Below, in pieces: positions 1,204 to 19,094 of a stretch of 64,000 bases of DNA (position 1 is the first letter of the stretch; each line of letters opens with the position of its first letter). Both the position numbers and the translations under genes were made by a program. The notes below the pieces were generated by a model. It worked only from the letters and a program-made list of their open reading frames with translations, did not search any database and was not told where the DNA came from. The stretch is from the NCBI GenBank assembly GCA_002167745.1, contig NHCB01000014.1:1-64000 (forward strand), in the 5' to 3' direction. This stretch comes from Betaproteobacteria bacterium TMED22. Its GTDB lineage: Bacteria > Pseudomonadota > Gammaproteobacteria > Burkholderiales > Eutrophovitaceae.

Positions 1204-2493
1204 ATGCAAATTAAATTGAACTACGGTCGCGGCAGTATTCCATTAAACGTTGACGACGGCTGGAATCCTGAAATCATTCGAAAACCACTAATGCCGTATG
1301 CAAAAAAACCGAGATCAGCTATTAGTAAAGCACTGAGTAGTCCGGTTAACGCACTACCGCTAGCAGAAATAGTCAGACATAAGAAGAATGCATGCATTCT
1401 AATCTGTGATATCACTCGACCAGTTCCAAACCATTTACTACTGCCAGAGATTGTGGCTGTACTCATAAAAAATGGAATCTCAATAAAAGATATTGAAATA
1501 CTTATAGCCACTGGCCTGCATCGGCCAAATGAAGGAAAGGAACTCAAACAACTTATCGGTGATGAATGGATTTTGAACAACATAAAAATATCCAATCACT
1601 TTGCGAAAAATGATGCAGATCATGTTTTCGTAGGCACTACGAGCAAGGGAACAACGGTAAAACTCGATAAACGATTTGTTAATGCTGACCTAAAGATTGT
1701 GACAGGACTGGTAGAACCGCATTTCATGGCTGGATATTCGGGAGGAAGAAAGGTCATCTCGCCCGGGGTTGCTCATCAAGACACCATTATGACCTTCCAC
1801 AATCACAAGTTCATGTCTGATCCAAAAGCAGATAGCTGCATCTTAGACGGAAATCCCTTACATGAGGAACAAATTGAAATTGTCTCCATGCTTGGAGAAG
1901 TACTCAGCGTCAATACAGTTTTAGACGAACATAGAAACTTGTCCTTGGTTAACTATGGAGAAATTATTGCCAGCCATTTACAGGCAGTAGATTTTGCAAA
2001 AAATTACCTCTCGGTACCCATCCACCGTAAATTTAACACCATCGTTACGAGCGCTGCGGGTTATCCATTGGACGCTACCTATTATCAGACTATTAAAGGA
2101 ATGGTCGTGCCTTATCAAATTCTTGAGCCTGGAGGAGATTTAATAATCGCATCAGAATGCTCAGAGGGCCTTGGGTCGTATGAATTTAAAAAGGCGCAAC
2201 AAACGCTTGTCGAGAAGGGAGTAGAGTATTTTTGTTCAAAGATTTCTAAAAAGTCTTTCGCGGCAGTAGACGAATGGCAGACACAAATGCAGACTAAAAT
2301 AATGGAGGTTGGGAATGTATATTTATATGCGCCTAGTCTGCAGCCCTCAGATCAGCAATTCACCGGAGTAAATATCATCAGAGACCTCAACGAATTCGTG
2401 AGATCACGAATTATCAAAAATTTAGACGTGTACGGGGAATCAAGCTTGGCGATTATCCCGGAGGGGCCTTACGTAGTGCCAACACCTAATTAA
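1204..2493 (+). CDS. LarA-family (DUF2088) nickel-dependent racemase-like protein
   Basis: A 429-residue cytoplasmic protein with the signature residues of lactate racemase LarA: TRPVP with Arg72, ATGLHRP with His106, EPH with His173, YSGGRK with Lys183, and His199 in TFHNH. By recalled alignment these match Arg75, His108, His174, Lys184 (covalent pyridinium-thioamide nickel cofactor attachment) and His200 of Lactobacillus plantarum LarA. It probably racemises or epimerises a 2-hydroxy acid. The substrate cannot be read from sequence, because LarA homologues act on several hydroxy acids. The cofactor genes larB, larC and larE are not in the window. It is followed 46 bp downstream by a second, divergent homologue, so the two probably form one operon. 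Confidence 0.82.
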   Translation: MQIKLNYGRGSIPLNVDDGWNPEIIRKPLMPYAKKPRSAISKALSSPVNALPLAEIVRHKKNACILICDITRPVPNHLLLPEIVAVLIKNGISIKDIEILIATGLHRPNEGKELKQLIGDEWILNNIKISNHFAKNDADHVFVGTTSKGTTVKLDKRFVNADLKIVTGLVEPHFMAGYSGGRKVISPGVAHQDTIMTFHNHKFMSDPKADSCILDGNPLHEEQIEIVSMLGEVLSVNTVLDEHRNLSLVNYGEIIASHLQAVDFAKNYLSVPIHRKFNTIVTSAAGYPLDATYYQTIKGMVVPYQILEPGGDLIIASECSEGLGSYEFKKAQQTLVEKGVEYFCSKISKKSFAAVDEWQTQMQTKIMEVGNVYLYAPSLQPSDQQFTGVNIIRDLNEFVRSRIIKNLDVYGESSLAIIPEGPYVVPTPN

Positions 2494-2539
2494 TTATAAG
2501 TAATCAAGTCGATCCAGCCTTAAACATAGAGGTAATCAA

Positions 2540-3838
2540 ATGATTCACGAAAAAATAGATGTTCAGATTGCGGGAGGCCTAGATTTTCCATTGAGCAGTA
2601 TGGTTCGGGTCCAACAAAATTTCAGCGCACCTACGATCGAAGACATCGCGGCGACGATCAAAAAAGAATTTGCCAAAGAGGCCATTAAAAATAAAATTGT
2701 TCCCGGTCAAAAAATTGCTGTTGGTTGCGGCAGCCGCGGCATCGCTAACATAGCAACCATAACTAAGTCGGTTATTCATGAACTAATTCATCTTGGAGCC
2801 AAACCATTCATTTTCCCATGCATGGGAAGTCACGGTGCAGCGTCAGCTGAAGGGCAAAAAGAGGTACTGGCTGGCTATGGCATTTCCGAGGAAACGATGT
2901 CTGTGCCAGTTCACGCGACAATGGAAACTGAAATCGTTGGTCATTTAGAAGACGGGACTCCAGTACATGTAGATATGAACGCTGCGCGTGCTGACGGCAT
3001 AATCGTCATCAATAGAATAAAACCCCATACGGCATTTCGTGGTGCGACGGAAAGTGGACTAACAAAAATGCTCGCAATCGGTATTGGGAAAATCAATGGG
3101 GCGGCGACGTACCACAGACATGGCATGGACATGTTTCCGTCATTACTCCCTAAGGTTCGAGACGTGAACATTAAGCAACGAAATGTATTATTTGGTGTGG
3201 GTATCGTTGAAAACGCATTTGATCAAACAGCCGTCATTGAGATTATTCCTGCAGAGCAGATTGGCGACAAAGAGCCGGAACTTCAAAAACTGGCAAAGGA
3301 AAATATGCCCAGACTCAACTTCTCAAGCATAGACGTTCTTATCATTGACGAAATGGGTAAAAACATTAGTGGCGCAGGCTTCGATCCAAATATAACCGGC
3401 CGCAATAGACGCGGAGTTGAATGGAGTAACGGATTGAATGTTAAAAAAATAGTGGTCTTAGGACTCACCTCAGAAAGTCATGGAAATGCGACCGGCATTG
3501 GCGGAGCTGACGTAATTACTATGCAGCTTTACCGCGACATGGATGTGAGTGCGACATACGCTAATGTCGTCACCTCAATGAATCTTGATGGCGCAGCGAT
3601 TCCGATCATTATGAATTCAGACCGAGAGGCAATCGCGCTAGCAATTAAAACGGTTGTTCGAACTACGCCTGAAAACTGCCGCATCGTACGAATAAAAAAC
3701 ACGCTATCGCTTGGTGATATTTATGTTTCGGAAAATATGCTGGACGAATTAAAAGAGCAGCCCGATGAATTTACCATCATTTCAGATGCAAAAGATTGGC
3801 AGTTTGATTCTTACGATTCGATTCAGCCTTTCGACTAA
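2540..3838 (+). CDS. Divergent LarA/DUF2088-superfamily protein
   Basis: A 432-residue protein, preceded by AGAGGTAATC before its ATG. Overall it differs from its upstream neighbour, but the same landmarks can be placed: GSHG with His98 where LarA has G-x-HRP, RIKPH with His163 where LarA has EPH, and ESGLTK with Lys176 where LarA has SGGRK. I therefore read it as a second member of the lactate racemase superfamily that may keep the cofactor lysine. The function is unknown; some relatives are annotated only as DUF2088 or as Fe-S-binding, but I see no cysteine cluster here. The tandem arrangement suggests a joint pathway, perhaps hydroxy-acid or sugar-acid use, together with the enolase-superfamily gene downstream. 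Confidence 0.6.
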   Translation: MIHEKIDVQIAGGLDFPLSSMVRVQQNFSAPTIEDIAATIKKEFAKEAIKNKIVPGQKIAVGCGSRGIANIATITKSVIHELIHLGAKPFIFPCMGSHGAASAEGQKEVLAGYGISEETMSVPVHATMETEIVGHLEDGTPVHVDMNAARADGIIVINRIKPHTAFRGATESGLTKMLAIGIGKINGAATYHRHGMDMFPSLLPKVRDVNIKQRNVLFGVGIVENAFDQTAVIEIIPAEQIGDKEPELQKLAKENMPRLNFSSIDVLIIDEMGKNISGAGFDPNITGRNRRGVEWSNGLNVKKIVVLGLTSESHGNATGIGGADVITMQLYRDMDVSATYANVVTSMNLDGAAIPIIMNSDREAIALAIKTVVRTTPENCRIVRIKNTLSLGDIYVSENMLDELKEQPDEFTIISDAKDWQFDSYDSIQPFD

Positions 3839-4161
3839 TTAGTGCGTCGCCATAATGTATGACAACAATAAATCTGAAGACGATATAAGATTTTTAATTT
3901 ATATTTCTGACCATATTTTTTTATTCTTAGGTCATCAATTAGAAAACATAAAATGCGCATTTTTGGTGCGGTTTATTAATTTCATGTCAACTCGGTGCAT
4001 GGTCTATCCACAGAAACTGTGGATAACATTGCTCAGTCACTGAACTCAATAATTAAAACTTGTTTACGCTTAATAGTTTTGTTTGTTCTGCTTAAAAATT
4101 AATCAGGACGAAATAATTGCTTATAACCAATTTGATTGATTATTAACTATATATATTACTT
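3839..4161. other. AT-rich intergenic region, no convincing gene
   Basis: This 323-bp gap separates the second LarA homologue from the enolase-superfamily gene. The only open frame (62 codons from 3855) has low-complexity, AT-driven codons, no ribosome binding site and no recognisable product. The one distinct element is the inverted repeat at 4004-4026. The last 100 bp are very AT-rich (for example TATATATAT just before 4162) and may contain the promoter of the next gene, but I could not fix -35 and -10 boxes. Confidence 0.6.
4004..4026. promoter_or_regulatory. Inverted pair of DnaA-box-like 9-mers
   Basis: TATCCACAG (4005-4013) and CTGTGGATA (4017-4025) form a perfect 9-bp inverted repeat around AAA. 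Read outward, the right arm TGTGGATAA (4018-4026) is an exact reverse complement of the DnaA box TTATCCACA, and the left arm CTATCCACA has one mismatch. No run of T follows, so it is not a typical terminator. It may be a DnaA-controlled operator or titration site, or a site for another palindrome-binding regulator. Confidence 0.5.
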
Positions 4162-5349
4162 ATGAGAATAATAGACATACGAACGATAACCTTAGAAGTA
4201 GTGCTAAATGAAACCGTTTACGATGCGAACTACACTATGAAAAACAAACCCGCTCTTTTGGTTGAAGTAGTCACCGATGAGGGATTAGTGGGCGTAGGCG
4301 AAGCGGCACATTTTGGCGGACCAATGAGTTCGACCGCGCATGTCATTGAACAAGAACTCAAACCTTATTTGGTTGGCAAAGATCCGATCAACACAGAGCT
4401 TAATTGGGATCTAATGCACAGACGTGCTTACAAACATGGGCGCGGCGGAATCGTAGTCGCCGCGATCAGTGGAATTGATATTGCGCTTTGGGACCTCAAA
4501 GGAAAAGTTTCCGGGTTACCATGCTGGCGCTTAATGGGCGGATATCGTAAGCGAGTACCTGCTTACGCCACAGGAGGCTTTTACTCATGCAGCAAAGACA
4601 ATGACGCCTTAATCGATGAGATGCAAACATACATTAAGGCGGGATTTCGAGCAGTCAAAATGAAAGTTGGTCGCAATAGCAGTATGGAACTATCTCCTTT
4701 GCGAGCTTCGGAGGAATGTGGCATTGCAGAAGTTTCTCTTGAGGAGGATATCAAACGCGTCGAACTGGTAAGACAAACCATTGGGCCTGATATCAAACTT
4801 TGCGTAGATGCAAATGGCGCGTGGGATGTTGCAACGGCTGTCAAAATGGGACGAAAATTAGAACCCTACGATATTTACTGGCTTGAAGAGCCAGTTTGGC
4901 CTGACGATATCCTTGGTAGCAAAGAAGTAGCTCAAAAATTATCCATTCCAGTTGCCGGATATGAAACGTGCAGTTATGGCATGGTGGACTTTCAAAAATA
5001 CATTAGTCACCGAGCGGTTCACTTTGTACAACCTGACGTTGCGTGGTCAGGCGGGCTGACCGAGTGTTTAAAAATCGCCCACCTTGCTCAGGCAGCCAAC
5101 TTACCTTTGGCCCCACATATTCATGGCTCAGCGGTAGCGGTTGCCGCAGGGCTTCATTTACTTGGCGCAATAAAAAACGGGAGTATGGCGGAGACTGTTT
5201 TCCCAGCGCATCCATTAATGACGCAGTTAGTAAAAGCACCACTCGCCATTGATGAAGATACAGGCGACATCACACTATCCGAAGCCCCTGGATTAGGTAT
5301 CGAACTTAATTTAGATGTTGTTGACCGTTACAGGACAAATGCAAACTAA
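4162..5349 (+). CDS. Mandelate racemase/muconate lactonizing enzyme family protein (enolase superfamily)
   Basis: 395 residues: an N-terminal capping domain (1-130) and a TIM barrel. It has the full acid-base set of the mandelate racemase subgroup: KMK with Lys166 and Lys168, metal ligands Asp216 (VDANG), Glu242 (EEP) and Glu268 (GYE), and the His319/Asp292 dyad (APHIHG, QPDVAW). Such enzymes abstract the alpha proton of a carboxylate, giving racemisation or dehydration of sugar acids. The substrate is not readable. An insertion around residues 170-195 lengthens the loop after the KxK strand. Its position after two LarA homologues suggests a hydroxy-acid pathway, though no transporter or regulator is adjacent. 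Its 3' end converges with the Sel1 gene at a distance of 6 bp. Confidence 0.88.
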   Translation: MRIIDIRTITLEVVLNETVYDANYTMKNKPALLVEVVTDEGLVGVGEAAHFGGPMSSTAHVIEQELKPYLVGKDPINTELNWDLMHRRAYKHGRGGIVVAAISGIDIALWDLKGKVSGLPCWRLMGGYRKRVPAYATGGFYSCSKDNDALIDEMQTYIKAGFRAVKMKVGRNSSMELSPLRASEECGIAEVSLEEDIKRVELVRQTIGPDIKLCVDANGAWDVATAVKMGRKLEPYDIYWLEEPVWPDDILGSKEVAQKLSIPVAGYETCSYGMVDFQKYISHRAVHFVQPDVAWSGGLTECLKIAHLAQAANLPLAPHIHGSAVAVAAGLHLLGAIKNGSMAETVFPAHPLMTQLVKAPLAIDEDTGDITLSEAPGLGIELNLDVVDRYRTNAN

Positions 5350-6923: not shown

Positions 6924-9503
6924 CTAACTTGATAATCGTTTCCAAGCAAACGAAGAGCGTCGAACAAAAATATCCAGCAAGTACGCGATGAGAGCCAAAG
7001 TCATCAAGACAGGCCATAAAGCAAACCGTTTTTGAGCTGTATCTTCACCGGCAGTAAAGACCTCTTCAGCACGAGCACCGAGCTTACCACCGGTGGATGA
7101 TGCCACGACCGTTAACAGTTCCAGATTTGGCCCAGAAAAACGATACTCCGCAGGAAAACCAGGAAATATAGATCGAGACCCTGCCATATCCACCACCTCG
7201 CTTGAAATGCCTCCCTCTGCCTCTAGTGTTGCTGAAACTGCCTCTCTGCCAACAAATGGCACAATAAGCCGATACTGACCTGGTGCAATTTGCGACATAC
7301 TAACTGATCGAGTCTCTTGCCCAACGCTCACACGCAACTTTGGTAATAGGCTATTTCTATAGCTTCCGCTCTCAGTGAGCAAAGTGAGATTGAACACTGC
7401 CGTTTTATTTTCTCTGTCACCCGAGAAAAATACCGTAGTCGAGCCCAATTGTTTAACGACACTACGCGTTAATTGTGACCAAAATTTGCCATATCCCTCC
7501 CACTGAACCCAATCAGAAGACCATCGGTTTTTAACATCAGAGGTAAAAAAAACAGTCTTACCTAAGCCATACTGCCAACGCGTCAAAAGGGGGGCACCTT
7601 GTTGTGTAACTAATATCGTTTCCGCTGTGTCTTTAGCCTTTACAGCAATATGGCCTCTAAGAGGAGGAGCAGCTTGGAGATCAATACCGGACAAAGATCC
7701 AGTCGGTTGTTTCATGACAGTAAGAATTGGCTCCTCTACAAGACTGGTTCCAACAACCTTCTTAGTTTCCTCTGTAAAAATTTGCGGAATTGAATCTGCC
7801 GACAACGCCAAATAATTCCGACCATCCCCCCAGTCTGATAGTTGTCGCATCAAGCCGGGATTCCCGCCTTCCCCAATTGTGACGGTAGAAACCACGATAT
7901 TGCTGTCTCTCATTCGCTTCAGTAAACGTTCATACTCAGCAGGGGCCGTATCGCCATCCGAAAGAAGAATGACATGCTTTGTCGGAACCTCTAAATCCCT
8001 TAGGAGTCGATAAACAATCCCGAGCGCCGGATAGATATTAGTTTGACCGCTAGCCTGAATTCGACTAACCAAGGCCTCAGCCTTCCGCTTAGATTTAACC
8101 GGCTCAACGGGCACTGGTACGTAAGGCTGGGAATCAAAGGCCACCACACCGAAGTAGTGCTGCTCTTCAAGCAAATCGAGAGAAGCTCTCGCAGCCTCTT
8201 TAGCGTACTCAATCTTTCGTCCTTTCATGCTATAGGAGCGATCAATTGCGATAACGAGAGCAATATCTTTACGTTTTTCTTGAGCCTCGAACTCAGCTGG
8301 CAATAAGTCTTCAAGAATCGAGTTGGAGTAACCATCATCCCCAAAAGTATTTTCTCCACCAGCAAAAATGAGTCCTCCCCCAAAGTCTTGAACATATCGT
8401 TTAATGTCCTTCATTGAATTAGCAGAAATGGTCGCAGCTAAAACATCGGACAGAATTAAAGCATCGTAAGCCTTCAAATCGTCATACTTTGGAATGCGAT
8501 CTTTCACTATGACTTCAAAGCCGGCTTCAGATAACGCTTCATTCAAGTACGAAGAGGCACTCGAAATTCCTTCTAGATAGAGAATCCTCGCTTTATCTTC
8601 GACCCACGCACTTATTTGAGCACGATTATTTTCCAAATATGGATCGCCCTCAACGGTCATTACGACATCTAAAGGGACAGATCCCCCCTCAGGCAGCCTC
8701 ATCTTGATTTGAAGATCATTAAAACCCGGTTCCACAACATGTTCTTGCTTTGCAATTAAGTCGCCATCGGTTGAGATAATAATCTCTGCTGACGCTTTCG
8801 AAGGACTAAACACGCGAATAAGGGAAGTGACCGGCTCTAGAGCTCTCAACCTATTGGGAAGCTTAACACTACTGATCCAAGCATCTTCAACTTGAGCAGA
8901 GTCAGCTACCATCGGGTATATGCGCGTCCCTGAACGATCGGCAGACTGTAGCAAATCTAATAATGAACCATCAGTTTGATTACCGTCAGAGAACAATACA
9001 ATCCTCTTTACGTGGTCTGCTCCCAGAAACGCGAGCGATTCATCGATCGCGGCTTCTAGATTAGTACCCGACTGCTCGACATGTACTGAATCACGAGATA
9101 ACGCGCTCTGCCCAAGATCAGCAATCGTTACCGCTCTCGCTTCCTCGGTAGAGGGTACCACCTTACGATTATGTCCAAAGATCACAATTCTTGATTCCGT
9201 TGGCCTATACCTTTCCTCAACCTCATCTATCCACTGAAGTGACTTATCAATAAAATCCGCCGCTACACTCCTAGACACGTCGACCGCGTAAATAACTGAA
9301 ATATCTTGACTTGTATATCGGATGATAGGCTGCGCCAAGCCCAAGATGACAGCCATTAATGACACGCCACGAAAAACAGCTAATAACTGGAGATGTCTCA
9401 GGGCCAAGGTGGTTCTTGTCTTTAACGAGAGCCACCAGAGTAAAGGGAGCAAAAAAATCAGCCACAGGGCATATGGATTTTCAATACTAAGCATAGGAGT
9501 CAC
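6924..9503 (-). CDS. Membrane protein with two VWA domains and a GATase-like domain
   Basis: 859 residues. Two N-terminal transmembrane helices (about 11-27 and 41-60) precede a first von Willebrand factor A domain with MIDAS motif Asp75-x-Ser77-x-Ser79, Thr147 and Asp173. A beta-rich linker (about 205-300) and a class I glutamine amidotransferase-like domain (305-410, lacking an obvious catalytic Cys) follow. A second VWA domain has Asp421-x-Ser423-x-Ser425, Thr488 and Asp516. The C-terminus ends with another hydrophobic helix and a basic tail. Most of the chain should be periplasmic. It is the last gene of the MoxR operon, starting 4 bp after the preceding stop. Function is unknown; MoxR/VWA pairs often act in metal-dependent assembly or maturation of envelope complexes. 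Confidence 0.85.
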   Translation of the reverse strand: MTPMLSIENPYALWLIFLLPLLWWLSLKTRTTLALRHLQLLAVFRGVSLMAVILGLAQPIIRYTSQDISVIYAVDVSRSVAADFIDKSLQWIDEVEERYRPTESRIVIFGHNRKVVPSTEEARAVTIADLGQSALSRDSVHVEQSGTNLEAAIDESLAFLGADHVKRIVLFSDGNQTDGSLLDLLQSADRSGTRIYPMVADSAQVEDAWISSVKLPNRLRALEPVTSLIRVFSPSKASAEIIISTDGDLIAKQEHVVEPGFNDLQIKMRLPEGGSVPLDVVMTVEGDPYLENNRAQISAWVEDKARILYLEGISSASSYLNEALSEAGFEVIVKDRIPKYDDLKAYDALILSDVLAATISANSMKDIKRYVQDFGGGLIFAGGENTFGDDGYSNSILEDLLPAEFEAQEKRKDIALVIAIDRSYSMKGRKIEYAKEAARASLDLLEEQHYFGVVAFDSQPYVPVPVEPVKSKRKAEALVSRIQASGQTNIYPALGIVYRLLRDLEVPTKHVILLSDGDTAPAEYERLLKRMRDSNIVVSTVTIGEGGNPGLMRQLSDWGDGRNYLALSADSIPQIFTEETKKVVGTSLVEEPILTVMKQPTGSLSGIDLQAAPPLRGHIAVKAKDTAETILVTQQGAPLLTRWQYGLGKTVFFTSDVKNRWSSDWVQWEGYGKFWSQLTRSVVKQLGSTTVFFSGDRENKTAVFNLTLLTESGSYRNSLLPKLRVSVGQETRSVSMSQIAPGQYRLIVPFVGREAVSATLEAEGGISSEVVDMAGSRSIFPGFPAEYRFSGPNLELLTVVASSTGGKLGARAEEVFTAGEDTAQKRFALWPVLMTLALIAYLLDIFVRRSSFAWKRLSS

Positions 9504-9507
9504 ATCT

Positions 9508-11298
9508 TTACTGTGTAATGCGCCGATGGTATAAGCACCAATCAGCCATCAGTAAGATCAGTGTCAAAGCACCAACTAGAAAAGAAAGTGAGTATCCGTT
9601 TAACACGGGATCACCAAATTTGTTCGGAGACTCGATAACCGGCAGATTAGATTTATTAATATCACTAAACCGTCTGTTAAGTTGGCTAACCGAAACCCTG
9701 AGGGGACCATTTGAAGAAAATCCTGTAAATAAACCTGTCTCATGGGTATGAAAGTAAGCGTTACCATCAGCAAACCATAAAGGAACATCAGTACCGTCAA
9801 TTCGATACAGCTTTGTTATCTCGCGGGGAAGTTTAATAGTGCCAGGATTTGCGTTGAGAACAGGAGGCTCATCAACTAACCATTTAATTGAGTTCGACAA
9901 AAGGATTGGAAAGTCCGCTAAAAAAGCAAGATTCGACTTGTCAAGATCAAATCCAAGCAAGATACTCTTAACAGCACCTGGAATAGCAACGGCTAATACG
10001 CCTTCACCCTCAGATGTCAGCAAGGCATCAACACCATCAACCATCTCAAATGTAACGCCCGATTCAATCAAGAGATCCGTCATTGAAATATTCCCAAGAA
10101 CTGGATGAACACTATTTTTCTCAACTGAAAGCTGCGAGCTTCTAATTGGTGCATATGAAATGTCCGACCATTTAGCCGAATTAAGTCCAAACATCATAGA
10201 TGGAATAACCGGCTTTCGGTCTACGGCGACTTCATCAAAAACTAATGCATCGAATTGGAGTTCATCGGCTTCGAGGCCTTGATATTCGGCATAAGTCAAT
10301 GAAGTAACAGCAATACGTGGCATCAAACCCAAAAGGGTGAACATTTTTGAATCTAGATTATCAGAGATGAAACCCACTCGAACCTGCCTCTTGGCAGTAA
10401 TATAGCCAAAAGCCACATCATCCGCATTAAAACGATCTGTATTCGACAGGAGAGAGGCTTTTACAGGCCCACTCTCAAAATCGGTCACATCAAAGATCTG
10501 CGTTACCTTTTCATAGGGCACAAGTTCAACTTGCCTGGTGACCGATCGAGACTGAGTTTGAGTCAGTGCGACATCGACAACTTGAGATTCGCCTCCACCA
10601 TTAACGATTTCAATAAAAGCCTGTCGTTTTTGTGTATTGCCCGGCACAGCAGCAAAAGATAAGCGAGTGATCCCCACATTAGGAACAGGTTCAAATACAG
10701 AGATGGCGGTAAAGTCTTCGGGCACCCCGCCAATCATGACACCGTCCGTGTAGATAAACTTTCTTGATACATCGACGGTTGCTACTTGAGCAGGCACTAG
10801 GGGATCCAGACTGCTTCCCACACTTAAACTTTCGAGAATTTCTAAAGCTTGCGAAATTGAACCGAAAGAGGGCGTTGTGACTTGCCTTTGCGTATCGACC
10901 AACATGACTTGCATATCTTTTGATAAAGAATCCAAATGACGTGCCACAAAATCTTTCGCGACATTAAACCTACTCATTCCATCTTGAGTTAACGCGCCCA
11001 TTGATGGAGCGTTATCAAAAATGATAAGGGATCGGTCGTCTACCTGACCGCCAGTTGAGGGACGAAAAGCAGCCAACAAAAGACAAATCGCAATTAGCAT
11101 AGACAATAATAGGGATAACCACCATCGCCAACGCTCATTAATCACTCTTGACGACCTAAGAACCCGCCTCCATATCAAATTCGATGGCATTAAGCGATTC
11201 AGCACCGGAGGACGCAACAAGTACAGGAGAATCACACCCACAATCAGGCCAGCTATTAAAAAGAAAAATAGAGGACTTGAAACAGCGACTGAGGTCAT
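9508..11298 (-). CDS. BatA/VWA-domain membrane protein
   Basis: 596 residues with the BatA N-terminal arrangement: a helix at about 9-27, then the LLRPP-x-x-N-R-L-M-P-S-N-L-I-W-R-R segment, a second helix (60-77), and a VWA-like domain beginning at residue 90. The MIDAS is degenerate: Asp95-Asn-Ala97-Pro-Ser99 has Ala in place of the first Ser, so metal binding is doubtful. A C-terminal helix (about 572-588) anchors the other end. It overlaps the DUF58 gene by 4 bp and is therefore translationally coupled. It is probably the partner of the dual-VWA protein in an envelope complex. Confidence 0.82.
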   Translation of the reverse strand: MTSVAVSSPLFFFLIAGLIVGVILLYLLRPPVLNRLMPSNLIWRRVLRSSRVINERWRWWLSLLLSMLIAICLLLAAFRPSTGGQVDDRSLIIFDNAPSMGALTQDGMSRFNVAKDFVARHLDSLSKDMQVMLVDTQRQVTTPSFGSISQALEILESLSVGSSLDPLVPAQVATVDVSRKFIYTDGVMIGGVPEDFTAISVFEPVPNVGITRLSFAAVPGNTQKRQAFIEIVNGGGESQVVDVALTQTQSRSVTRQVELVPYEKVTQIFDVTDFESGPVKASLLSNTDRFNADDVAFGYITAKRQVRVGFISDNLDSKMFTLLGLMPRIAVTSLTYAEYQGLEADELQFDALVFDEVAVDRKPVIPSMMFGLNSAKWSDISYAPIRSSQLSVEKNSVHPVLGNISMTDLLIESGVTFEMVDGVDALLTSEGEGVLAVAIPGAVKSILLGFDLDKSNLAFLADFPILLSNSIKWLVDEPPVLNANPGTIKLPREITKLYRIDGTDVPLWFADGNAYFHTHETGLFTGFSSNGPLRVSVSQLNRRFSDINKSNLPVIESPNKFGDPVLNGYSLSFLVGALTLILLMADWCLYHRRITQ

Positions 11299-12230: not shown

Positions 12231-13226
12231 TTAACTTTTTGGTAGCTCAGCGCATCGTACTATTTCCTCGAGGATATGATCAGGGTCTACTCTTTCAGCC
12301 TCAGCCTCAAAGTTAATCAAAACTCGATGTCTCAAGGCTGGCAACGCAACTGCCTTAATATCATCAGCACTCACATAAAAACGATCATTAAGTAGCGCAT
12401 TAACTTTCGCACCGAGAATTAATGACTGCACACCTCGAGGACTCGCGCCAAATCGAACATATTTTTTCGCCAAGTCGTGGCCCTCAGTGCTCTCGGGATG
12501 AGTAGCAAGCGTAATCGCGATTGCATACCGCATAACTGGTTGAGCAACAGGTATGGCACGTGCGATTTCCCTCATTTCCAAAATTTCAGCTCGCCCTAGC
12601 ACGTGTGATGCGGTTAAATCATCCTGCTGGGTCGTGCGTTCAACGATTGTTAATAGGTCGGTAGCCTCCGGAAAGTCTAGTCGTAATTTATATAAGAAAC
12701 GATCCATTTGCGCCTCTGGCAGTGGATAAGTTCCCTCCATTTCAATTGGATTCTGAGTGGCCAGAACAAAAAATGGTTGGTCTAGCTTGTGTGTTGATCC
12801 GCCCGCAGACACACTGTTCTCTTGCATCGCCTCGAGAAGTGCGGACTGAGTCTTAGGTGTTGCTCGGTTGATTTCATCTGCAAGTAATATGTTCGTAAAT
12901 ATTGGACCCCGTTGAAATTCAAATGACTTTTTACCGTCGTCAGCTTCCCTCACTATGTTAGAGCCGATAATATCCCCGGGCATTAAATCCGGAGTAAATT
13001 GAATTCTTGAAAAGCCTAAATCCGTAGCATCCGATAACGTTTGCACCAACTTCGTCTTCCCTACGCCAGGAATCCCTTCGAGCAAAACATGTCCACGAAC
13101 TAGCAAACACGTTAAAACGTTTGAAATCACTTCTCTATTACCAACAATAACTTTCGAAACCTCATCAATAACCTGAGAGAAACGATCTTGAAAAACTCGT
13201 GCCTGTTGTTCTACATTTAACGTCAT
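12231..13226 (-). CDS. MoxR-family AAA+ ATPase
   Basis: 331 residues, the usual length for the family. Walker A is GIPGVGKT (51-58), Walker B is LLADE (114-118), sensor 1 is ATQNP (156-160), followed by the MoxR motif YPLPEAQMDRF. MoxR ATPases act as chaperone-like remodelling factors that work with VWA/DUF58 proteins, for example in metal insertion or maturation of enzymes. The start codon overlaps the upstream DUF4175-like gene by 4 bp, so the whole set 14818-6924 reads as one operon. Confidence 0.95.
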   Translation of the reverse strand: MTLNVEQQARVFQDRFSQVIDEVSKVIVGNREVISNVLTCLLVRGHVLLEGIPGVGKTKLVQTLSDATDLGFSRIQFTPDLMPGDIIGSNIVREADDGKKSFEFQRGPIFTNILLADEINRATPKTQSALLEAMQENSVSAGGSTHKLDQPFFVLATQNPIEMEGTYPLPEAQMDRFLYKLRLDFPEATDLLTIVERTTQQDDLTASHVLGRAEILEMREIARAIPVAQPVMRYAIAITLATHPESTEGHDLAKKYVRFGASPRGVQSLILGAKVNALLNDRFYVSADDIKAVALPALRHRVLINFEAEAERVDPDHILEEIVRCAELPKS

Positions 13227-14818
13227 CTTTCATTTCCCTCATGAATTTCTAAAAAATATTCTTGCACTGACCTCCTCTGTTCCACAGATATAAACTCACC
13301 CGTAATCACATCAGAGTCCTTATAAGTAATCGTATCGAGTCCTTGAACTATTTCCGCCCGAGCCTTTCCTTGTTTACTCGCTTGAAATTCCCAAGCAGAA
13401 TCCTCACTATCAACACTCTCATCACCTTCGACCTCGGTTTTTTCTAAGCGCAGAACAGCATCCAAACGCTTGGTCATACGGCCCTCAAGTGCTAGTGCTG
13501 CCGCGTGACCTTCCGGCGCTCCAGTAGAGCTCCCATCATCACCTTGATCTTCCTCATTCGCGGTTACTGAACCACGTCTAAAGAGTGACCCACCAGTCAT
13601 GTCATTATTGCCAGCATCAGGCGAAGGCGTTCCATTTCCGGCCTCTGCTTGGTCCGAAGTGGCCGATCGACCACCATAATCGGCTGCGCCGGTCTGTGCC
13701 ATACCAATACGCTCTCCGGCACTTTCCATTCTAGAGGCAGCGGTATTGGCTCGTTCTTGCGATTCCATATCTTGTTGCGCTTGCTCAAGATTTTCAATTA
13801 ACCGCGTAATATTTCGCGGATCTGGCCGCCCCACTTCATTCAATAGATCTCGAGCAGCATCACCAATTTCGGCGGAGGATATATTTTCACTTCGAGCAGT
13901 TGCTCCAGCTTGTTGGTCCTCATCGCCTACATTTTGATCAGTTTCTGTGAGCGATGCCAGTTGCTCCTGCTTCTCTTTCAATAAGACGATAGCTTCTTTT
14001 ATGTTGCCTTGCTCTAATGCCCTGCCAACCCCCTCAAAATCATCCTGCTCTATGAGAAGCTTCGAGAGTTTAGATAATCCTTCACGAGTCATAACCGCGT
14101 CCATATTAATCTGGTCAAGAACCTCACGCGCCCTCTTCAATGCTTCTTGCTTCGCCTCGAAACTAATATCATCTCTGGTCAACACTGCAAGTGCATCATT
14201 AATTTCTTCCACATTCGAAGATACTTGTGGTTCAGTTAAAATTTTTGTAACGCCATCAACCCGAGCACCAGAAACATTCTGTAACGCAAAATCATCCTTA
14301 TTTGCGATAACCACATTGGATACCCCTAGCCATGTCACAACCAATGTGATAACCGCTAAACCTGCAACTTTACCGCTTTGAGGAAAGGAAAAAGGTGCTA
14401 TGGCCTTCGCGTCAATCGTCCTCACTTTTTCAACTGCTCGCTTCAGATGCTCTGATACAAAGGCTTGGTCACTCTCTCCTAATTCTTTATCTGAGTTCCC
14501 GAACCACATTGCGCTGAGCAACTCATCCTTCAAGCCTGCGCGCTCATCTACAAATCGTGCCGCATCATCATCACCGATACTGGACCACGTTCGATACCAG
14601 ACCGTTACTAACAGGATAATCCCTAATATTCCGACACAGGCAAAGATCCCACCGGACACATTCAAATCGAGGGACATAAGCAGGACCAATAAACCAGAAC
14701 AAGCGAATAGAAGCGTCGACAAGGCAAAGCCGAGTTCACTCAAGGAAGTGTTTAACTTGAGATTGAGTTCAACTCGACTAACTAGCTGCTTCAGTTCTGA
14801 TAGGTTCTTCGAGGCCAT
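13223..14818 (-). CDS. Membrane-anchored coiled-coil protein of the MoxR operon (DUF4175-like)
   Basis: 531 residues. Two adjacent transmembrane helices (about 28-48 and 55-72) and a third at about 150-168 frame a short loop. The remaining 360 residues are acidic and rich in Glu, Gln, Ala and Ser, with helical stretches likely to form coiled coils, and a low-complexity Gly/Ser/Asp-rich part around 365-430. I do not recognise a precise family; the layout resembles the DUF4175-type proteins often found with MoxR/BatA genes. It is the first gene of the operon and overlaps moxR by 4 bp. The product is probably a periplasmic scaffold. Confidence 0.7.
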   Translation of the reverse strand: MASKNLSELKQLVSRVELNLKLNTSLSELGFALSTLLFACSGLLVLLMSLDLNVSGGIFACVGILGIILLVTVWYRTWSSIGDDDAARFVDERAGLKDELLSAMWFGNSDKELGESDQAFVSEHLKRAVEKVRTIDAKAIAPFSFPQSGKVAGLAVITLVVTWLGVSNVVIANKDDFALQNVSGARVDGVTKILTEPQVSSNVEEINDALAVLTRDDISFEAKQEALKRAREVLDQINMDAVMTREGLSKLSKLLIEQDDFEGVGRALEQGNIKEAIVLLKEKQEQLASLTETDQNVGDEDQQAGATARSENISSAEIGDAARDLLNEVGRPDPRNITRLIENLEQAQQDMESQERANTAASRMESAGERIGMAQTGAADYGGRSATSDQAEAGNGTPSPDAGNNDMTGGSLFRRGSVTANEEDQGDDGSSTGAPEGHAAALALEGRMTKRLDAVLRLEKTEVEGDESVDSEDSAWEFQASKQGKARAEIVQGLDTITYKDSDVITGEFISVEQRRSVQEYFLEIHEGNER

Positions 14819-14922
14819 AATCGATCAATTGTATACCATGTTTTATCTTATAATGAGTAGACATTCACCCAAGAAGATCATGAATTCACCCAGAACCTTA
14901 AAAAAAGCTCCATTGAATAAAC

Positions 14923-16371
14923 GTGATTAGAACCACAATATTTTTGGAACAGTATTTACGACGAGTTGTCCTCACTGTGACATGCATCGGATTTATAAGT
15001 TGCATCGCCCACACTGGATGGGCAACCGCAAGTGAAAGACCTCATATTATTTATATCTTAGCCAACGATCTGGGATGGAGGGATGTCGGATTCCATGGCG
15101 GAAGAGTCCCGACGCCGCACATTGACGCACTTTCAAATTCGGGAGCGCGTTTAGAGAGCTTTTATACGCTACCTTACTCATCATCAGCGCGAGCGGCACT
15201 TCTTACGGGCCGTTATCCATATCGCTTTGGGCTTCAAACTAAATCAATTCTAGCTTGGAGCACCTACGGTCTCCCCAAGGATGAACGCCTCCTACCACAG
15301 GCGCTGAATATAGCTGGCTATCGAACAGCAATGTTGGGCTCGTGGCTACTCGGACATGCAGAAAGAAACCAACTACCAACTCAGCGCGGCTTTGATTATT
15401 TCTATGGCAACCTAAGTCCGGTTGGAGACCAATTGAAAAAAATTAATACCATTGGACTTACTGACTGGTTTGAAGGTGAGAGACAAATGACAGAATTTGG
15501 ATATACAACTGATTTAATCGGAGATAAGTCCGAAGCACTCATAGATACTCATGATTCATCAACGCCACTATTCATGATGATCAGTTTCCCTTCACCGGGG
15601 ATGCCACTCCAAGCGCCAGATAGATTCAGCTCAAGACATAGTCATATCACGGATAAAGCGACACAAACTTACTTAGCGATGATCTCCCAGCTTGATGAAG
15701 CCATTGGTAAGATTATTAATGCACTAGATAAAAAACAAATGAGAAAAGACACAATTGTTGTTTTTCATAGCGACAATGGTGGTGCAGTAAAACGTAAATA
15801 CCTGTCTGGTGATGGTGATACAGACCAAACTGTAAGTGACAACGGCCCTTTTCGCTCTGGCAGTGGGTCCCTATACGAAGGAGGCGTGCGAGTACCAGCA
15901 ATCATATCTTGGCCTGGACGAATTCAACCGAGCATATCTACTGAACGCGCGCACATCACTGACATGTACGCAACATTACTTCACATTGCTGGTGTATCTC
16001 TTGGTAAAAATGACCAAGTAAAGCCAATTGACGGCATCAATATATCACCCGCTCTTATGAAAAATCGGTTGCTCCCCAAAAGAGCTTTAGTACTCAATGT
16101 AAATGAATTTGGCGGTGCGGTTTTAAAAAATAACTGGAAACTAATTAATGTAAGTACGCTCCCTTCACAAACGGAGCTCTACGATATCGGAAACGACCCT
16201 TCCGAGGAGTTGAATGTCGCGCATCAGCATCCAGAAATCGTGAAAGAGCTATCAGCAACACTATTAGAAGCTTCCTGGGAAATGGCGCCTTCACTTTATC
16301 TAGACGACTTATCTAATCCTCGTAATTATCGGACACCTATGTTCTGGGGCGATAACCCGCAAAGACCATAA
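14923..16371 (+). CDS. Sulfatase-fold protein, probably catalytically inactive
   Basis: 482 residues starting at GTG, with an N-terminal hydrophobic segment (about 13-29) that acts as signal peptide or anchor. The sequence follows arylsulfatase B from NDLGWRDVGFHG onward. By recalled alignment the active site is rewritten. The formylglycine motif C-x-P-S-R is Ser86-Ser-Ser-Ala-Arg90. The lysine and histidine of GKWHLG are Ser140 and Leu142. The later histidine is Gly226 and the later lysine is Ser314. Of the four metal ligands Asp49, Asp284 and Asn285 remain, while the first is Asn48. The fold looks intact and no frameshift is apparent, so this reads as a maintained pseudoenzyme or an enzyme with another chemistry. 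It is transcribed divergently from the MoxR operon, with 104 bp between them. Confidence 0.85.
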   Translation: MIRTTIFLEQYLRRVVLTVTCIGFISCIAHTGWATASERPHIIYILANDLGWRDVGFHGGRVPTPHIDALSNSGARLESFYTLPYSSSARAALLTGRYPYRFGLQTKSILAWSTYGLPKDERLLPQALNIAGYRTAMLGSWLLGHAERNQLPTQRGFDYFYGNLSPVGDQLKKINTIGLTDWFEGERQMTEFGYTTDLIGDKSEALIDTHDSSTPLFMMISFPSPGMPLQAPDRFSSRHSHITDKATQTYLAMISQLDEAIGKIINALDKKQMRKDTIVVFHSDNGGAVKRKYLSGDGDTDQTVSDNGPFRSGSGSLYEGGVRVPAIISWPGRIQPSISTERAHITDMYATLLHIAGVSLGKNDQVKPIDGINISPALMKNRLLPKRALVLNVNEFGGAVLKNNWKLINVSTLPSQTELYDIGNDPSEELNVAHQHPEIVKELSATLLEASWEMAPSLYLDDLSNPRNYRTPMFWGDNPQRP

Positions 16372-16612
16372 ACAACGTAATGAGGGCCACGAACCATGCA
16401 GCACCACACCCTGACGGATGAACTCGTTGGAAATCACACTTTATAAAGTTATGACCCTTCACGTTAAAGCGTGTATGTCTAGTTTTCATACCTTTGTAGG
16501 CTAGTGACAAATGGTCAGGCTGGTATCGATACACCCACCCAAATTGTAAAATCGGATATTGACCTCAGATTCTACTAATCGGCTTTAATCAACTAAACGA
16601 TCCCAACCAAGT

Positions 16613-17962
16613 TCACTGATCACGTATCTCAGATTTCGACTCTTTGGATGGTATTTCATTTATGAACTGATCAGCTAACGCTCGATAAAGTGGCCGACGA
16701 CAAACCACCTTAGAACAACCTGCTGCCAATAAAGATGCGGCCATCAATGGCACAATCATATCGTGGTTGTCCGTCATCTCCATCACAATCACAAACGCGG
16801 TAACGGGGGCTTGGACCACCCCTGCGAAGTAAGCAACCATACCTAATACAACAACAGCGCCCAGAGGAACATAAGGAATAATTTGAGCGATGTTTTGGCC
16901 AAGTCCAGCACCAACAGCCAAAGAAGGTGCGAAAACACCACCTGGTATGCCGCTGACATAAGAAACTAGGGTTGCCAATAATTTGAGAATACCAAATGAC
17001 TCAGGAATCTCTCCTGTGCCTTCGAGGATCATTCGCGCCTCATGGTAGCCGGTACCGTATGTTGAGCTACCTGACAGCGCACCAATCACGGCAAGCAGGA
17101 ACCCACAAAATGCAGCGAAAATAATAGGATTTGTTTTAGCGAAGGCACCCATCTTGCCGGGGATCCCACGTGATATAAAAATCAACAACTGACTGAATAT
17201 ACCTCCCAATACTCCGCCAACCACACCGCACACGATCACTGGGATCCAAGCGCTCGAGCCATTAAGAATCGCCGAAGTTGTTCCAAAGTAGGTATAGTCG
17301 CCCAACCACCAAATCGATACAATTCCTGCGACGATCACGGAAGTAAGCACCGTGCCACTGGTACGACTCTCATAATTCCGGCTCATTTCTTCAATAGCAA
17401 ACACTATCCCTGCGAGAGGAGTATTAAATGCTGCTGCGACGCCAGCCGCTCCGCCGGCAAGTATCAGTCCACGTTTTGTCTCGACCCTTGAAAAGCGAGT
17501 GAGCCGACCAAGAGACTGCATAATCGAAGCACCGATTTGAACCGTAGGCCCCTCACGACCCACCGACGCTCCGGAAAAAAGGCTTAAAACCGTCAACAAG
17601 AACTTACCCAACGCTAACCTTATGGATAAGTAATACCCCCTGCGCTCCTCGTTCTCCGTATTGATAGCCGCAATCGTTTGCGGAATCCCGCTTCCCTGCG
17701 ATCCAGAAAAAAATTTCCGGGTTAACCATACGACAAGCGCTAATCCTGCTGGCCCAACCACAAAAGGTAATAAAGGAGAGAACTCCGTAACGCCTTGGTG
17801 CAATGAGTTGGCATACTCAGCGCTCATGGCAAACACAATGGCCACGACACCAACTAGAACAGCACCCATCCAGAGCACGACCCTTCGCAGCCAGAGACGT
17901 GGGCTCAACCAGGCATGCCGACCTCGCCTCAGTAGACTTGGTGGTACAACCCTGTTACTCAT
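16613..17962 (-). CDS. clcA: ClC-family chloride channel/antiporter
   Basis: 449 residues with about a dozen hydrophobic helices. The three ion-binding signatures are present: GSGIPQ (90-95), GREGP (135-139) and GGVFAP (near 330). Glu137 in GREGP corresponds to the external gating glutamate (Glu148 in E. coli ClcA). The pair Glu191-Glu192 in AIEEM matches the internal proton-transfer glutamate, so a 2Cl-/H+ exchanger is more likely than a passive channel. No C-terminal CBS domains are present. It converges with the sulfatase-fold gene and looks monocistronic. The role is probably acid tolerance or charge compensation. Confidence 0.93.
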   Translation of the reverse strand: MSNRVVPPSLLRRGRHAWLSPRLWLRRVVLWMGAVLVGVVAIVFAMSAEYANSLHQGVTEFSPLLPFVVGPAGLALVVWLTRKFFSGSQGSGIPQTIAAINTENEERRGYYLSIRLALGKFLLTVLSLFSGASVGREGPTVQIGASIMQSLGRLTRFSRVETKRGLILAGGAAGVAAAFNTPLAGIVFAIEEMSRNYESRTSGTVLTSVIVAGIVSIWWLGDYTYFGTTSAILNGSSAWIPVIVCGVVGGVLGGIFSQLLIFISRGIPGKMGAFAKTNPIIFAAFCGFLLAVIGALSGSSTYGTGYHEARMILEGTGEIPESFGILKLLATLVSYVSGIPGGVFAPSLAVGAGLGQNIAQIIPYVPLGAVVVLGMVAYFAGVVQAPVTAFVIVMEMTDNHDMIVPLMAASLLAAGCSKVVCRRPLYRALADQFINEIPSKESKSEIRDQ

Positions 17963-18236: not shown

Positions 18237-19094
18237 TCACTGAATTTCTCTAACAAGACGAAACCCTAGATCATCTGCTCTAGATCCTGAGAATCTGAAA
18301 CGATCTGATTCAAATAGATAGTAAGGTTCATTGTTTAGCCATGAACCCCCTCTAAAACCTCTTAATGAACAGTCCCCAGAGACCCAGGATCTTCCATCTT
18401 GTGGCGCGCCACGCCAATCAGGACTCGCACAGTCGTCAGTCCACTCGGATACATTACCGATCATGTCATAAACACCAAACATGTTGGATTCAAATTGACC
18501 CACCGGAGCGAACTCGTGGAAACCATCTGAGCAAGGAATAAAGTCCTCTCCTGAATGATATTCTTGGTCTGCGTCTTGATCGTAAGTATTAGCGACATTA
18601 CACAGCTCTTTTTCAGGGATACCGAAGAAACGATTCATGCCTAACCCAGCACGAGCCGCATACTCCCACTCCGAATTCGACGGCAATCGATATCTGAAAC
18701 CAGTTTTCCTCGATAACCATTTCGCAAATTGGTTGGCTTCTGACCAAGTCACATTAAAAATCGGTAATTCGGCCTTGAACGCTTTATCCATTTCCAACTG
18801 AGGACAGCCACCATCAATTACACATGCCTGCCATTGTCGAACGGTAATCTCATATTTGCCGATCGCAAAAGCGTATGAAAAAGTAACCGAGTAAAAGTAA
18901 CCCTCATCATGCGGGTGTCCCGGACCCCAGGGGGCAACCCTCATTTCAAAAACTCCCCTGGGTATTGTCACCATGACTGGGCATGTCTCGCAATCCCCGA
19001 ACTCTATCTCCTCACCCCAGACCGACGAGCAGAATATCATCGCCGACATGAGGAGGCCACCAACAATTTTTAGGATAAGTGCTACGGAACACAT
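18237..19094 (-). CDS. Secreted SUMF1/FGE-fold protein without catalytic cysteines
   Basis: 285 residues with a signal peptide (hydrophobic 5-22). The rest matches the formylglycine-generating enzyme-sulfatase (SUMF1) fold: IGKYEITVRQWQAC (78-91), NVTWSEANQFAKWLS (114-128), YRLPSNSEWEYAARAG (135-150), GNVSEWTDDC (213-222), RGFRGGSW (245-252) and DLGFRLVRE (275-283). In true FGE the two active-site cysteines follow the GGSY/W motif; here the equivalent positions are Asn254 and Tyr259. Formylglycine formation is therefore unlikely, and a binding or structural role in the periplasm is more plausible. It may be cotranscribed with the secreted protein encoded upstream at 19313-19864. Confidence 0.85.
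   Translation of the reverse strand: MCSVALILKIVGGLLMSAMIFCSSVWGEEIEFGDCETCPVMVTIPRGVFEMRVAPWGPGHPHDEGYFYSVTFSYAFAIGKYEITVRQWQACVIDGGCPQLEMDKAFKAELPIFNVTWSEANQFAKWLSRKTGFRYRLPSNSEWEYAARAGLGMNRFFGIPEKELCNVANTYDQDADQEYHSGEDFIPCSDGFHEFAPVGQFESNMFGVYDMIGNVSEWTDDCASPDWRGAPQDGRSWVSGDCSLRGFRGGSWLNNEPYYLFESDRFRFSGSRADDLGFRLVREIQ

Follow-up and report, generated by a model that had tools for sequence, protein, structure and literature searches.

The gene at 14923-16371 of the window, by which we mean the whole 64,000-nucleotide stretch of DNA analysed here, encodes a sulfatase-fold protein that lacks most of the usual catalytic residues of its family and is a component of a six-gene module. The module also encodes a MoxR-type ATPase and VWA proteins, and its linkage to the sulfatase-like gene is an addition to the preliminary description of this locus. 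The gene and two codons of interest are as follows.

14923..16371, + strand: pseudo-sulfatase, 482 aa, with the S1 sulfatase fold at about residues 38-476
15178..15180, + strand: Ser86 codon (position from the ORF), replacing the formylglycine Cys; Ser in 44/44 clade members, Cys in 20/20 complete-site relatives
15190..15192, + strand: Arg90 codon (position from the ORF), the retained Arg of C-x-P-x-R; Arg in 44/44 clade members

Sulfatase fold and altered active site

The frame starts with GTG and, as had been stated in the preliminary description, is open over its full length of 482 aa with no internal stop. A Kyte-Doolittle scan finds a single hydrophobic stretch at residues 15-33, which is probably a signal peptide, and the protein is apparently secreted. 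The full Pfam Sulfatase profile (PF00884, 1-301) matches with an E-value of 9.3e-54, and further matches are found to SGSH_C and, weakly, to Phosphodiest. The closest solved relative by sequence is human arylsulfatase B (ARSB, 1fsu, E 7.1e-65). The AlphaFold model, for which the 44 clade proteins served as the alignment input, has a pLDDT of 91.5 and superposes on ARSB with a Z score of 51.2 and an rmsd of 2.1 over 417 residues, and on the carrageenan sulfatases with Z scores of 46.7-50.0. Homology and fold therefore both place the protein in the S1 family.

The active site is heavily altered. In the alignment to ARSB, the formylglycine Cys pairs with Ser86, and K145, H147, H242 and K318 pair with S140, L142, G226 and S314, respectively; we take the ARSB residue numbers and the catalytic roles of this Cys, Lys, His, His and Lys set as generally given. 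The preliminary description had read the motif C-x-P-S-R as SSSAR at residues 86-90, with the formylglycine Cys gone, and had named the same four substitutions; the alignment agrees at every one of these positions, so that neither the [CS]-x-P-x-R maturation motif nor the catalytic Lys/His/His/Lys set is present. Nor do the alignments and the superposition on ARSB place a substitute for the motif, the Lys or the His elsewhere. Asp49, Asp284 and Asn285 remain as metal ligands, also as described before, and the fourth, the first Asp of the site, is Asn48. The earlier phrase that every catalytic residue is replaced holds for the Cys, Lys, His, His and Lys but is too strong, since the Arg of C-x-P-x-R is kept as Arg90. 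In the AlphaFold model a helix begins at residue 86, and the roles of Ser86 and Arg90 may be purely structural.

The pseudo-sulfatase is the only PF00884 match in the window's genome (1.9 Mb, 95% complete). No anSME scores over the cut-off in this 95%-complete genome, the best match reaching 23 bits against 349. The genome holds six genes with the FGE fold (PF03781), four of which form two tandem pairs on contigs C8 and C1, while the sixth, on contig C2, looks EgtB/SenA-like by eye. FGE has a pair of Cys residues with a role in its active site, and this pair is found at the aligned place in none of these six genes (0/6). One of them lies in the window:

18237-19094, - strand: FGE-fold, PvdO-like protein; nearest solved chain PvdO 5hha

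This protein reads LNNEPYY where the aligned FGE has LC..SYC. It was considered as an FGE partner of the pseudo-sulfatase and rejected, being PvdO-like and without the Cys pair. In two other genera of the family, g3 and g4, a relative of it is likewise encoded close to the pseudo-sulfatase gene. The genome thus yielded neither another sulfatase nor a recognisable formylglycine maturase, which is what one would expect if Ser86 remains unmodified.

A conserved clade within one order

Across 399 genomes of the order, 54 had a match at E 1e-40. The bit scores fall apart with a wide gap, at least 385 on one side and at most 194 on the other, and one clade fragment at a contig edge scores 189. At most four candidates were scored per genome, and the gene counts are thus lower bounds. 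Together, the order and family searches yielded 44 clade genes from 34 genomes, all of environmental bacteria of one order, plus the contig-edge fragment (170 aa, L051 of G013), which is counted outside the 44. Rows judged partial or distant (two from L151 and a single one from L154, L157, L161 and L163 each) are left out of the tree, the residue counts and the column and gain comparisons. The residues found in the 44 clade members are listed below.

Residue 48: Asp 31, Asn 12, Gly 1
Residue 86: Ser 44/44
Residue 88: Gln 25, Ser 13, Pro 6 (Pro absent in 38/44)
Residue 140: Lys 18, Ser 10, Glu 6, Gln 4, others 6
Residue 142: Gln 22, Leu 16, Arg 5, His 1 (H142 lost in 43/44)
Residue 226: Ala 24, Gly 10, Gln 6, Ser 3, Glu 1 (H226 lost in 44/44)
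Residue 314: Lys 18, Arg 12, Ser 9, Met 3, others 2
Retained: Asp49 44/44, Arg90 44/44, Asp284 42/44, Asn285 39/44

Orthologues with the same substitutions, for which a search had been proposed in the preliminary description, do exist in that the whole clade shares the absolute losses of C86 and H226. Residue 86 is the sole column in which at least 90% of the clade has one residue and at least 80% of 20 complete sulfatases have another. Among the 33 columns that are invariant in these 20 complete-site relatives, 23 are retained by 95% or more of the clade members; the clade falls below 95% at 7 of 10 catalytic or metal columns vs 3 of 23 others (Fisher p 0.0024, a guide only, as the sequences are related). 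Judged by these alignments, the loss pattern at catalytic columns exceeds chance. At several other columns, the clade is nearly fixed for a residue that few of the complete sulfatases share:

Ser108: 41/44 clade, 0/20 complete sulfatases
Arg122: 42/44 clade, 2/20 complete sulfatases
His282: 40/44 clade, 2/20 complete sulfatases
Asp297: 42/44 clade, 3/20 complete sulfatases
Asp299: 43/44 clade, 2/20 complete sulfatases
C-terminal W-x-x-N-P: Trp475 41/44 and 1/20, Asn478 44/44 and 2/20, Pro479 41/44 and 1/20

W475, N478 and P479 are also absent from all six sister sulfatases (0/6). That residues were gained as well as lost points to a new role rather than mere relaxation. His282, Asp297 and Asp299 could form a new active or metal site instead of a contact. 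His145, a further candidate gain, was dropped because it is present in 6/6 sister sulfatases.

Profile searches beyond the order matched 15 of 369 class genomes and 48 of 398 phylum genomes, motifs being read for the higher-scoring loci, which were fetched. The six closest outsiders have a complete site (C-T-P-[TSA]-R, GKWHLGH, APH, SDNGG and GK). In a tree built without the catalytic columns (quick search, unrooted, SH-aLRT support only), the 44 clade rows lie on one side of a branch with a support of 99, beside complete-site sulfatases, and the simplest reading is a single origin from active enzymes. As a separate observation, the Prevotellaceae sulfatases L025-L027 carry SSASR and are thus Ser-type, with motifs otherwise complete.

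The gene is maintained. Open orthologues are present in 9/9 genomes of the genus and 17/17 of the family, the window's included in both, and the other genus members are 69-85% identical. Among genus pairs, dN/dS is 0.07-0.18 by NG86 and about 0.09-0.23 by YN00, computed with Biopython's experimental module for the 12 of 36 pairs with an NG86 dS below 1.5, the remaining pairs being saturated. The dN/dS comparison suggested earlier thus gives values well under 1. A recent, decaying pseudogene, which the preliminary description had named as a possible refutation, would be consistent with the long stem leading to the genus (0.52 changes per column) and with the further losses there (N48, S140 and S314 in 9/9). 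However, the frames are open in all nine genus genomes, dN/dS is low and the losses are aimed at catalytic columns; we reject this explanation as extremely improbable. The earlier suggestion that selection maintains a role different from the usual hydrolysis of sulfate esters is supported by the open orthologues, the low dN/dS, the single clade, the gained residues and the constant neighbourhood described below.

Linkage to a MoxR-VWA module

Upstream of the pseudo-sulfatase, the window carries a divergent gene, c2, followed by genes for MoxR, DUF58, BatA-like and c0 proteins.

14819..14922, no strand: gap of 104 bp between the divergent pseudo-sulfatase and c2
13223..14818, - strand: c2, 531 aa, membrane coiled-coil protein; TM-like stretches 29-47, 56-74 and 148-166
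12231..13226, - strand: MoxR-type AAA+ ATPase (AAA_3), 331 aa
11295..12173, - strand: DUF58 protein, 292 aa; VWA_2 match, D-x-S-x-S intact
9508..11298, - strand: BatA-like membrane protein, 596 aa; D-x-S-x-S altered to D-N-A-P-S
6924..9503, - strand: c0, 859 aa; VWA and GATase1_like matches, TM-like stretches near both ends

The adjacent genes for a MoxR ATPase, a DUF58 protein and a BatA-like protein match the arrangement of a Bat-type operon. A scan of 14700-16700 for sigma-70-like promoters found 0, against 3.9 expected by chance. The c2 protein has no Pfam match up to E 0.1, and its predicted structure is helical with a long low-confidence region (mean pLDDT 61), too weak for a fold search. 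Elsewhere in the window, at 1204-5349 (+), two genes with LarA (lactate racemase) N-terminal matches are followed by an enolase-superfamily gene.

The arrangement is constant across the clade. In all 42 loci with enough sequence, c2 lies upstream of the pseudo-sulfatase (40 divergent, 2 on the same strand), at a distance of at most 0.6 kb in 41 and of 2.4 kb in L104; the remaining two of the 44 loci end 77 and 3 bp upstream of the pseudo-sulfatase. In the long loci, c2, BatA-like and c0 genes are found in 35/35, with MoxR and DUF58 in 27 and neither of them in 8, the matches being partly by construction because the HMMs derive from ORFs in these clade loci themselves. For these neighbourhood counts, the named-record copies L011, L012, L015 and L016 replaced L003, L004, L008 and L010. 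An independent tblastn search of the 34 other long loci with the window proteins recovered BatA and c0 in 34/34, MoxR and DUF58 in 26 and c2 in 28, missing c2 in L083, L087, L089, L100, L103 and L104; c2 diverges fast. Walker A is present in 28/28 MoxR proteins. The D-x-S-x-S motif is present in 35/35 c0 and 27/27 DUF58 proteins and in 15/35 BatA-like proteins, being altered in the window and in 20/35 loci overall.

Among the 399 genomes of the order, c2 was found in 32, c0 in 36 and the pseudo-sulfatase in 30, all 30 of which have both c2 and c0. Conversely, c2 occurs without the pseudo-sulfatase in two genomes (64% and 68% complete) and c0 in six. The HMMs from the clade loci also served the search for such modules. 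G176 (68% complete) holds a full module with 8 kb of upstream sequence free of a pseudo-sulfatase, and the order search gave no match in this genome. A contig of G139 and a second module of G009 carry c2-BatA-c0 without the pseudo-sulfatase in 1.9 kb and 1.2 kb of upstream sequence, respectively, and G114 and G153 have more distant MoxR-DUF58-BatA-c0 clusters, again without it. The bond is thus not obligate, as a few modules lack the protein. Around the six complete-site sister sulfatases, the same HMMs detected no module gene within the 19.5-kb stretches, and c0 was not found in their genomes in a search that included no known-positive genome, the same query having matched 36/399 order genomes.

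The eight modules that have c2, BatA-like and c0 genes and lack both MoxR and DUF58 (L082, L083, L085, L087, L089, L099, L103 and L104) each carry their own pseudo-sulfatase. They form one group in the FastTree trees of the sulfatase, c0 and BatA, with supports of 88, 100 and 97, and the same grouping in all three trees indicates that the module set was inherited together. Each of the seven genomes that hold these eight modules also has a MoxR-bearing module.

Possible function and known systems

We consider it fairly probable, from the sequence patterns and gene context, that the pseudo-sulfatase is a non-hydrolytic, ligand-binding periplasmic subunit or partner of a membrane MoxR-VWA complex. 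An active sulfatase would first have become coupled to the module. Constraint on its acid/base and substrate-activating residues would then have been lifted, whereas its fold and one side of the pocket (Asp49, Ser86, Arg90 and Asp284) would have been retained. Of the newly conserved features, His282, Asp297, Asp299 and W-x-x-N-P, some may form a contact surface. The pocket would most likely hold, but not cleave, an anionic ligand of the envelope or the extracellular space, such as a glycan or lipid bearing sulfate or phosphate groups, and its binding would be signalled to the VWA proteins in the membrane and to the MoxR ATPase. The preliminary description had suggested ligand sensing, scaffolding or an unrecognised chemistry; a non-standard function is supported in this general form, and the three are not told apart.

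The same pocket residues bear on an alternative in which the protein is an active hydrolase or transferase, with unmodified Ser86 as a metal-bound nucleophile and the metal coordinated by the ligands that remain; it would act on phosphate or phosphonate esters, as other members of the alkaline phosphatase superfamily do. Ser86, Arg90 and Asp49 are each found in 44/44 and Asp284 in 42/44, residue 86 is the only switched column, His282, Asp297 or Asp299 (rare in the 20 complete sulfatases, with 2, 3 and 2) would perhaps assist; many members outside the window's genus keep Lys140 (18/44) and Lys/Arg314 (30/44), so some activity is possible in those. Since the former acid/base and activating positions 140, 142, 226 and 314 vary freely, and the metal ligands fail in places (48 is not Asp in 13/44, 285 not Asn in 5 and 284 not Asp in 2), such chemistry is rather unlikely as a general account, even with a Mg-dependent phosphatase activity reported for the sulfatase-like YejM (PMC7576196). 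It is unlikely, too, that the protein serves the MoxR-VWA complex merely as a client or a structural support, with a pocket that stays empty. The constant gene linkage, the freely varying catalytic columns and the new C-terminal residues, which may be contacts, would all suit this role, and MoxR/VWA pairs are described as remodelling client proteins, as NorQ/NorD does with cNOR (PMC9976466). However, Asp49, Ser86 and Arg90 would then be invariant over a diverse clade for no reason other than structure, and eight modules keep the protein without a nearby MoxR, although the MoxR-bearing module in the same genomes could act instead.

It is tempting to speculate that the clade is a novel type of sensor in which Ser86, fixed in 44/44 while the turnover residues decayed, would act as a one-shot trap, or covalent acceptor, of sulfate or phosphate esters, and that its loading would be read by the membrane VWA proteins and reset by the MoxR ATPase. 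Cys-to-Ser sulfatase mutants are known to be trapped covalently, and we regard this variant as quite improbable. A Ser-type formylglycine sulfatase with an unusual active site, matured by anSME or another enzyme, is very improbable: Ser-type sulfatases exist, and the S-T-P-T-R of part of the clade (Pro88 in 6/44) fits the [CS]-x-P-x-R signature given in PMC5066984, but the motif Pro is Gln or Ser in 38/44, H226 is absent in 44/44 and H142 in 43/44, and the window's 95%-complete genome has no anSME over the cut-off, and all six of its FGE-fold genes lack the FGE Cys pair.

A pseudo-sulfatase of this kind has two practical consequences. Pfam scores such genes as sulfatases, which would give false evidence of sulfated-polysaccharide use, and the sole PF00884 match of the window's 1.9-Mb genome is such a misleading case. 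In addition, the clade offers a concrete handle on what the poorly understood MoxR-VWA modules sense or build.

Compared with known sulfatases, the whole fold is alike in ARSB and the carrageenan S1 sulfatases (1fsu; 6psm, 6b0j/6bia and 9hh2-9hh4; Z 46.7-51.2 over 408-417 residues), and Asp49, Arg90, Asp284 and usually Asn285 are common to them and the clade. In contrast to these solved enzymes, whose setting is polysaccharide degradation, the pseudo-sulfatase lacks the formylglycine precursor and the Lys/His/His/Lys set and is linked to a MoxR-VWA module. The SulfAtlas authors describe PF00884 as including proteins without a catalytic signature (PMC5066984), and pseudo-members of the family are not new as such. 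Among the matches listed, we recognised no sulfatase tied to a MoxR/DUF58/BatA module and no bacterial pseudo-sulfatase in open-licence PMC titles and abstract beginnings, and in that literature we recognised no precedent for a pseudo-clade that is conserved and regularly accompanied by a set of MoxR-VWA partners.

The module itself resembles the Leptospira bat genes, where a MoxR gene lies beside BatA-like genes and the Bat proteins are suggested to form a periplasmic signalling complex of elusive function (PMC3557215); here, DUF58 and VWA genes are present too. It differs in that c2 and the pseudo-sulfatase are regular members, no sulfatase being named for bat in the available portion of that report. 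NorQ/NorD is likewise a MoxR AAA+ ring with a VWA partner and remodels a known metalloenzyme target (PMC9976466), whereas here a second, MoxR-less module type exists. The MoxR-vWA ternary conflict systems share MoxR with VWA partners, and the window MoxR scores 42.4 bits against bpMoxR (cut-off 27), but it fits AAA_3 far better, with 211 bits. No beta-propeller family is among the Pfam matches of the module proteins, and the sole mention of "sulfatase" in the available portion of the conflict-system paper concerns an FGE-type domain (PMC7159879).

A further parallel in principle is YejM/PbgA/LapC, described as a sulfatase-like periplasmic fold that acts as an envelope sensor and switches partners to signal to a cytoplasmic machine (PMC12444477). 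It belongs to another subfamily, the NCBIfam model LapC_YejM_PbgA scoring 18.4 bits here against a cut-off of 825, and it has its own transmembrane domain, whereas the protein described here shows a single hydrophobic stretch, at its N-terminus, and is encoded beside a MoxR-VWA module. The likeness, an analogy, is one of principle only, and by it the pseudo-sulfatase would add to YejM/PbgA another sulfatase fold turned to envelope control.
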